From an uncultured Halobacteriovorax sp. (lineage in GTDB: Bacteria > Bdellovibrionota > Bacteriovoracia > Bacteriovoracales > Bacteriovoracaceae), in NCBI GenBank assembly GCA_913061265.1, contig CAJXVS010000003.1, forward strand, positions 124,001 through 188,000: 64,000 nt of DNA, in the 5' to 3' direction. A model generated the notes under the pieces. It saw only the letters and a program-made list of their open reading frames with translations, was not told the origin of the DNA and did not search any database. Position 1 is the first letter of the stretch. Each line of letters starts with the position of its first letter. Positions 26,161-26,818 of the stretch are shown in pieces. A program made the position numbers and the translations under genes.

Positions 26161-26189
26161 TTGAAAACATGGCTTTTCTTAATAAGAAT
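26161..26189 (+). promoter_or_regulatory. Candidate promoter of the histone gene
   Basis: TTGAAA (26161-26166), 17-base spacer, AAGAAT (26184-26189), about 50 bases before the histone ATG. The 213-base gap 26028-26240 contains no other ORF with a ribosome site. Confidence 0.4.
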
Positions 26190-26240
26190 AATCTACGTCA
26201 TTTTAATAAAAAATTATGTCATCATTAAAAGGAGAAAATA

Positions 26241-26426
26241 ATGAGTAAAGAAACTGAAATGTTACTAGTAGGATCAAAAACTAAAGAAGCCCTTAAGAGC
26301 GGTGGACTAAATGTATCTTCAGATGCACTTGAGAAACTAAACGAAAGAGTTCACGCTATGGTTAAAGACGCTCAAGCGCGTTGTTCAGCCAATGGACGTA
26401 AGACAGTTCGTTCAAGCGACTTCTAG
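26241..26426 (+). CDS. Bacterial histone (singlet histone fold, Bd0055/HBb-like)
   Basis: 61 residues. It aligns without gaps to the core of archaeal histones: short helix 1 (SKTKEALKSGG), loop NVSSD, long helix 2 (ALEKLNERVHAMVKDAQARC), then NGRKTVRSSDF. GRKTV is the loop-2 DNA-contact motif and the final Asp is the Arg-Asp clamp partner. Helix 3 is almost missing: the protein stops right after DF, as in the Bdellovibrio histone Bd0055, which is also about 61 aa and a major chromatin protein there. Strong AAAGGAG site, own candidate promoter and strong terminator indicate a monocistronic, highly expressed gene. Confidence 0.88.
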   Translation: MSKETEMLLVGSKTKEALKSGGLNVSSDALEKLNERVHAMVKDAQARCSANGRKTVRSSDF

Positions 26427-26450: not shown

Positions 26451-26480
26451 AGGCCAAGGTTAATCCTTGGCCTCTTTTTT
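26451..26480 (+). terminator. Rho-independent terminator of the histone gene
   Basis: AGGCCAAGG (26451-26459), loop TTAAT, CCTTGGCCT (26465-26473), then CTTTTTT. A 9-bp perfect stem with a U-tract, 25 bases after the stop. Confidence 0.9.
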
Positions 26481-26488
26481 GGAAAAAT

Positions 26489-26818
26489 ATGGAAGGAAGA
26501 AAACAAGAAGTCATCGAAGAATTAGAAGCCCTCGTTGTTGAAGGTTCTTGGAATGAACTACTGCCTTACTTTAAAAGTGGGAAGCTTCTTATCTGCCAAG
26601 AAGAAACCAATATGGTCGAGATCGGCGCTATGATGGTCTTAGATAATAATGACAAGATTAGTAAGCTTGCTGAGATTGGAGCTATTTCTCCTCCCTTAAA
26701 TGAATCAATCATAGAGTGGAACGATAACCCCGAAGAAAAAATATTTAAGTTCGTCGAGGTGATTCCCTATTGTCTCGCCCAAGTTACTAGCAAAGGAAAA
26801 TCCCGTGGACCTCTTTAA
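26489..26818 (+). CDS. DUF2288 family protein
   Basis: 109 residues. The pattern GSWNELLPYFKSGKLLI ... EIGAMMVLDNNDKISKLAEIGAI ... FVEVIPYCLAQV matches DUF2288 (W-EL-F-G ... LD ... D ... W ... PwVLVQ), a short cytosolic family of unknown function found in proteobacteria. Starts nine bases after the histone terminator, so it must be transcribed by readthrough or a promoter inside that region. It overlaps the DUF1499 gene by 14 bases. Confidence 0.65.
   Translation: MEGRKQEVIEELEALVVEGSWNELLPYFKSGKLLICQEETNMVEIGAMMVLDNNDKISKLAEIGAISPPLNESIIEWNDNPEEKIFKFVEVIPYCLAQVTSKGKSRGPL

Follow-up and report, generated by a model that had tools for sequence, protein, structure and literature searches.

The stretch of DNA analysed here (the window, 64,000 nucleotides) comes from an uncultured Halobacteriovorax sp. 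with a genome of 3.97 Mb that is assigned to the Bacteriovoracaceae/Halobacteriovoraceae. It contains a short gene at 26241-26426 on the forward strand, with its own expression signals and a neighbouring gene beyond them. The features of the locus are as follows.

26161-26189, + strand: sigma-70-type promoter consisting of TTGAAA (26161-26166), a 17-nt spacer and AAGAAT (26184-26189); found by scan and recurring upstream of about 20 cellular orthologues
26228-26234, + strand: Shine-Dalgarno site AAAGGAG, 6 nt upstream of the ATG; from sequence and conservation
26241-26426, + strand: histone open reading frame, ATG to TAG, 61 amino acids; probable face-to-face (FtF) type alpha3 histone of clade A of the Bacteriovoracaceae
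26379-26381, + strand: codon of R47, the equivalent of HLp R49, with a predicted contact to the C-terminal end of the facing dimer; from alignment and the role described in HLp and D4GZE0 (PMC12701072, PMC11390915)
26391-26393, + strand: codon of N51 (HLp N53), predicted dimer-dimer hydrogen bond; from alignment (PMC12701072, PMC11390915)
26397-26423, + strand: codons of R53-F61, comprising the RKTV loop 2, the RD clamp (R53/D60), the one-turn helix 3 and the free C-terminus
26451-26481, + strand: intrinsic terminator with a 9-bp stem, AGGCCAAGG/CCTTGGCCT, and a T run; from a scan of the sequence, which called it at 26451-26473, and from orthologue counterparts
26489-26818, + strand: DUF2288 protein, the neighbour past the terminator and outside the histone unit; from Pfam and neighbourhood comparison

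The 61-residue translation, MSKETEMLLVGSKTKEALKSGGLNVSSDALEKLNERVHAMVKDAQARCSANGRKTVRSSDF, carries a net charge of only about +3 (11 Lys/Arg and 8 Asp/Glu). A phmmer search of the PDB sequences matched it to HLp of Leptospira perolatii with an E value of 2e-10, compared with 8e-4 for HBb/Bd0055 and 2.6e-3 for HTkC. The curated models miss this histone, as its scores of 16 bits against Pfam CBFD_NFYB_HMF and 19.8 bits against the NCBIfam archaeal histone model lie under the respective cut-offs of 21.4 and 50; these scores are uninformative on the histone subtype. A search of Rfam around the gene gave no match. The single-chain AlphaFold2 model, for which the input was an alignment of 31 relatives, has a pLDDT of 90.5 and contains helices at residues 11-19 and 27-50 and a one-turn, three-residue helix at 58-60. 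HLp is the top Foldseek match (E value of 1.2e-4, TM scores of 0.87/0.94), with HBb and HTkC next (runner-up E value of 1.9e-3), and the HLp monomer superposes on the model with an r.m.s.d. of 0.8-0.9 Å. On sequence comparison and modelling together, we regard it as confirmed that 26241-26426 encodes a true histone-fold protein. The preliminary description had proposed a bacterial histone at this position, and these matches and the conserved orthologues described below bear it out; its outline of helix 1, loop 1, helix 2, a GRKTV loop 2 and a chain that stops where helix 3 begins is correct as given.

In the model, the shortened helix 2 and the one-turn helix 3 are those of the alpha3 fold. 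The helix 3 of about ten residues and the four-helix-bundle contact of nucleosomal-type histones are absent, the chain stopping one residue past the one-turn helix. Just 5-6 residues lie N-terminal to the fold, so that the N-terminal ZZ zinc finger of ZZ histones is also missing, and the 61 residues form one histone fold, not the two of DUF1931 (PF09123). As monomers, HLp, HBb and HTkC have almost the same fold; the VIA-align Z scores of 8.7 for HLp, 8.1 for HBb (8fvx) and 8.1 for HTkC amount to a tie, and an HLp type of assembly is thus not separable from an HBb type by fold. The comparison with Bd0055/HBb that had been recommended at the outset returned a histone fold for the single chain and this tie.

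Histones of this type (clade A) are present in 21 Bacteriovoracaceae genomes. Two further members of the genus have orthologues that are 92% identical, and those in about 18 more Bacteriovoracaceae genomes are approximately 66-90% identical. The closest records that bear a name, MAGs with the label Halobacteriovorax sp., encode a protein that is 92% identical. Across 16 aligned clade-A proteins, 27 columns are invariant. Measured against the congeneric 92% orthologue (genome G001), dN is 0.043 and dS is 0.73, giving a dN/dS of about 0.06; the clade-A histone is therefore under strong purifying selection.

The promoter is accepted because it recurs across genera and not because of the scan match, since the scan alone performed no better than on shuffled sequences (two found, 2.8 expected). 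In essentially all 20 cellular orthologues, a -35/-10 pair of the form TTGA(AA)-16/17-TAGAAT is located in register, 33-56 nt before the start, and the exact TTGAAA-16-TAGAAT (12/12) occurs in ten genomes. The consensus was taken from the same upstream alignment, which makes the per-genome p-values somewhat circular, and, taken singly, 5 of the 20 orthologue promoters do not reach a p-value below 0.1. GGAG is found upstream of every clade-A start, and a hairpin with a T run follows the gene in 15 of the 20 cellular orthologues, with stem sequences that differ. Conservation of this kind indicates that the promoter, the Shine-Dalgarno site and the terminator are real, in agreement with the three signals first proposed for the gene. 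Genes for DUF2288 and DUF1499 proteins often adjoin the histone gene downstream, beyond the terminator; an operon with them was considered and rejected because the terminator lies in between.

The codon log-odds of the gene towards ribosomal genes, a figure that rests on only 61 codons, is 0.107 per codon. Ribosomal genes themselves score 0.083 ± 0.036, whereas a background made up of the 64-kb window and three 20-kb stretches of the genome scores -0.106 ± 0.056 (p 0.0005 versus background codons). High expression of the 61-residue histone is likely, given the conserved promoter, ribosome site and terminator and the ribosomal-type codon usage. The abundant protein of the preliminary description thus gains conserved signals and a codon bias in the ribosomal-protein range, from which we infer the abundance itself.

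The alpha3 histones of this phylum have been divided by class: Bacteriovoracia have FtF histones and Bdellovibrionia have bacterial dimers, which are defined by the absence of the profile residues R48 and N52 (PMC11390915). The equivalents of both residues (R49 and N53 in HLp) are present in the 61-residue histone, as R47 and N51, and are invariant. In the HLp tetramer, R49, S52 and N53 of one chain contact R55, T61 and F63 of the opposing chain (PMC12701072), and in the phmmer alignment these six residues map to R47, A50, N51, R53, S59 and F61; the changes of HLp S52 to A50 and of HLp T56 to K54 were counted against the match. In the model of a Haloferax FtF histone (D4GZE0), the partner of the arginine equivalent to HLp R49 is the carboxylate at the C-terminus of the opposing dimer (PMC11390915). 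R47, N51, R53 and D60 are invariant in 21 of 21 clade-A proteins, position 59 is Ser or Thr in 20 of them, and all 21 chains end at position 61, HLp ending at the equivalent F63. The RxTxxxxD motif (RD clamp) is represented in the clade-A alignment by the invariant R53, T55 and D60. With a clade-A profile, the scores are 67.5 bits for HLp, 35.3 bits for HBb and 34.9 bits for the archaeal HTkC. In the tree, clade A falls within the bacterial R-N-R histones (branches of 98/90 and 99/90), while HBb clusters with other proteins from this bacterial family (99/96), including the ZZ-like L032 and the natural doublet L033; HLp forms a long branch with a poorly resolved exact position and was not used as proof. 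Taken together, these features indicate that the 61-residue histone is probably of the FtF alpha3 type.

The preliminary description had assigned the protein the truncated plan of Bd0055 and its end-on mode of DNA binding. Both proteins are indeed short at helix 3, but this feature is common to all of the alpha3 superfamily and is no sign of a Bd0055 type; to annotate a histone as Bd0055-like on these grounds would be an easy mistake, and the annotation is corrected in this respect. Bd0055 was described, from one crystal form, as a sheath on straight DNA that binds end-on (PMC10627809), and a DNA-bending model for Bd0055/HBb contests end-on coating even there (PMC11317129). Bd0055 has S45 and D49 at the positions of R47 and N51, and a version of it changed at S45, A48 and I61 brought DNA ends together (PMC10627809), so this surface decides the binding mode. 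A dimer of the Bd0055/HBb kind, which makes no tetramers and either sheathes straight DNA end-on or bends the DNA, would fit the shared phylum, the short helix 2, the one-turn helix 3 and the near-equal monomer fold (VIA-align Z of 8.1 for 8fvx). We consider it very unlikely here, as the R48/N52 equivalents are present and invariant in clade A, HBb reaches only half the score of HLp with the profile and groups with other family sequences rather than with clade A. Because R47, N51 and R53 are present and the match to HLp is far better, end-on coating by Bd0055 should not be transferred to this protein.

By analogy with HLp, two 61-residue chains would form the usual histone handshake dimer, and two dimers would close into a ring-like tetramer, held together at both ends by R47, N51, R53 and S59-D60-F61. 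Basic and polar residues on the rim, namely S12, K13, K15 and K19 of helix 1 and K54 and T55 of loop 2, would grip the DNA backbone, with about 60 bp of DNA wrapped per tetramer without sequence preference, if HLp is a guide. The protein is likely to be produced abundantly as a single-gene transcript from its own constitutive-looking promoter and would have a general role in the nucleoid, together with HU and another FtF histone. The tetramer, the wrapping, the abundance and the global role are all proposed by homology to HLp. A histone that bridges DNA or regulates genes at modest abundance, and is not one for general packaging, seems unlikely: the conserved, strong-looking promoter, the good ribosome site, the own terminator and the ribosomal-type codon usage weigh against it, while the retention of HU/IHF-family proteins in the genome, the fact that bridging by HLp in vivo was not excluded by its authors (PMC12701072) and the expression of the FtF histone HTkC at a level 34 times less than that of HTkA (PMC11390915) speak in its favour.

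The second FtF histone is encoded at G000:C6:34760-34933 (L002:1486-1686, minus strand); it has 66 residues, is 64% identical to the first and belongs to a separate clade (clade B). Its best solved relative is likewise HLp (E value of 2e-12), and its AlphaFold2 model (pLDDT of 88.5) has the same fold with a slightly longer helix 3 (60-63). The codon score of 0.100 corresponds to a very strong ribosomal-type bias. Clade B has Lys or Arg at position 47, keeps N51 and R53 and has Tyr or His at position 59; most members are extended by 2-3 residues at the C-terminus, and many of its relatives carry an AlgP/H1-like lysine-rich N-terminal tail of up to about 40 residues. With A and B assigned by eye from the match table, 14 of the 21 clade-A genomes also carry B, seven have A without B at the search depth used and many genomes carry B alone. 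HU/IHF-family proteins are present in 59 of 59 genomes tested, with three copies in the source genome; the 61-residue histone need not therefore be the main organiser. Histones are thus added to HU here, unlike in the Leptospira species, which lack HU and Dps and possess a single histone (PMC12701072). The search for an additional histone-doublet gene that had been proposed gave no match to the DUF1931 doublet (PF09123) anywhere in the source genome, and it was the second FtF histone that was found instead.

Several related arrangements were seen elsewhere. In other members of the family, natural doublets with two HBb-like folds in one frame of 137-160 residues occur in the L033:1702 region and at G006:C26:1771-2145, G025:C126:182-553 and G022:C1:374833-375219, and L032 has a zinc-finger-like domain N-terminal to the histone (ZZ type). 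Contigs L071, L072, L089, L091, L096 and L109, with the label Candidatus Omnitrophota, encode clade-B histones that closely resemble the Bacteriovoracaceae ones, owing either to horizontal transfer or to mis-binning. In L123, L126 and L127, which are MAG contigs labelled Euryarchaeota, two R-N-R folds are fused in one chain with repeats unlike each other.

The A and B chains might form mixed dimers or tetramers, in which B would contribute an N-terminal tail rich in lysine as well as an extended C-terminus. Such a partnership is compatible with the FtF reading and would be consistent with the 64% identity, the similar dimer-interface positions, the ribosomal-type codon usage of both genes and the 14 of 21 A genomes with B; we nevertheless doubt it, as the genomes with A and no B (seven, at the search depth used) and the many with B alone speak against it, and B differs exactly at the dimer-dimer contact (47, 59 and the C-terminus), which would tend to keep A and B apart.

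A histone of 63 residues that is 73% identical to the present one was found at L034:4980-5168 on a tailed-phage contig of 108,875 bp (IMGVR_UViG_3300037755_000497), which encodes a terminase above the curated cut-off. It nests inside clade A in the tree, and its neighbours are a phage DNA helicase, endonuclease VII and a primase-helicase; a promoter and terminator of the host type are absent at this gene. The published 'phage histones' are of a different type, without RxTxxxD (PMC11390915), and a search of the INPHARED phages gave no histone match. Other R-N-R (FtF-type) histones in IMG/VR are located at L135:4977-5168, L137:4887-5162, L035:284-613 and L136:5001-5183; two of these four are near thymidylate-kinase-like genes, and lysine-rich tails occur in two. 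The putatively viral contig L136 is 618 kb long, with a GC content of 61% in the stretch read.

A broader scheme, rather speculative and in our view unlikely as a whole, would be a two-histone chromatin of the Bacteriovoracaceae on top of HU in which the tailless A, with its free C-terminus, builds tetramers and the co-expressed B, lysine-tailed in many relatives and altered precisely at the contact between dimers, modifies or caps them. At least one tailed phage of the family would have captured A and would use it, while replicating, for the packaging or shielding of phage DNA.

FtF histones have already been reported in Bacteriovoracia (PMC11390915), and the present protein adds a further one. 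Three features are not described in the cited literature: the conserved promoter, the orthologue on the phage contig and the conserved presence of two paralogues alongside HU. If the FtF reading holds, the DNA-wrapping type of histone extends from Leptospira to a conserved clade in a predator-rich family, and one phylum holds both dimer-type and tetramer-type histones. The coexistence of HU/IHF with a paralogous histone that has a different assembly surface offers a natural comparison for the sharing of a chromosome between histones and HU, and the phage copy provides a chance to test the borrowing of bacterial histones by phages.

Among the known systems, HLp (PDB entries 9QT0-9QT2; PMC12701072), an FtF histone whose tetramers wrap about 60 bp of DNA, is 45% identical over the domain, is of equal length and has the same DF ending, the R-N-R tetramer residues, the RD clamp and the helix-1 lysines. 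It differs in loop 2, with RTT where the present protein has RKT, and in S52 where the latter has A50; the source genome differs from Leptospira in that two FtF paralogues coexist with HU/IHF-family proteins. The clade-B paralogue shares N51, R53 and the codon bias, but has Lys at 47, Y59 and a C-terminal extension, DILAE. HTkC of Thermococcus kodakarensis (9F2C) is also an FtF alpha3 histone, with a known tetramer, but is only about 36% identical, has Glu at the N51 position and has a longer loop 1. Bd0055/HBb of Bdellovibrio bacteriovorus (8FVX, 8CMP) has the alpha3 fold with a short helix 2, a one-turn helix 3 and the RKTV...D pattern, whereas its identity is approximately 32%, S45 and D49 stand in place of R47 and N51, loop 1 has one extra residue and the protein forms a dimer only.
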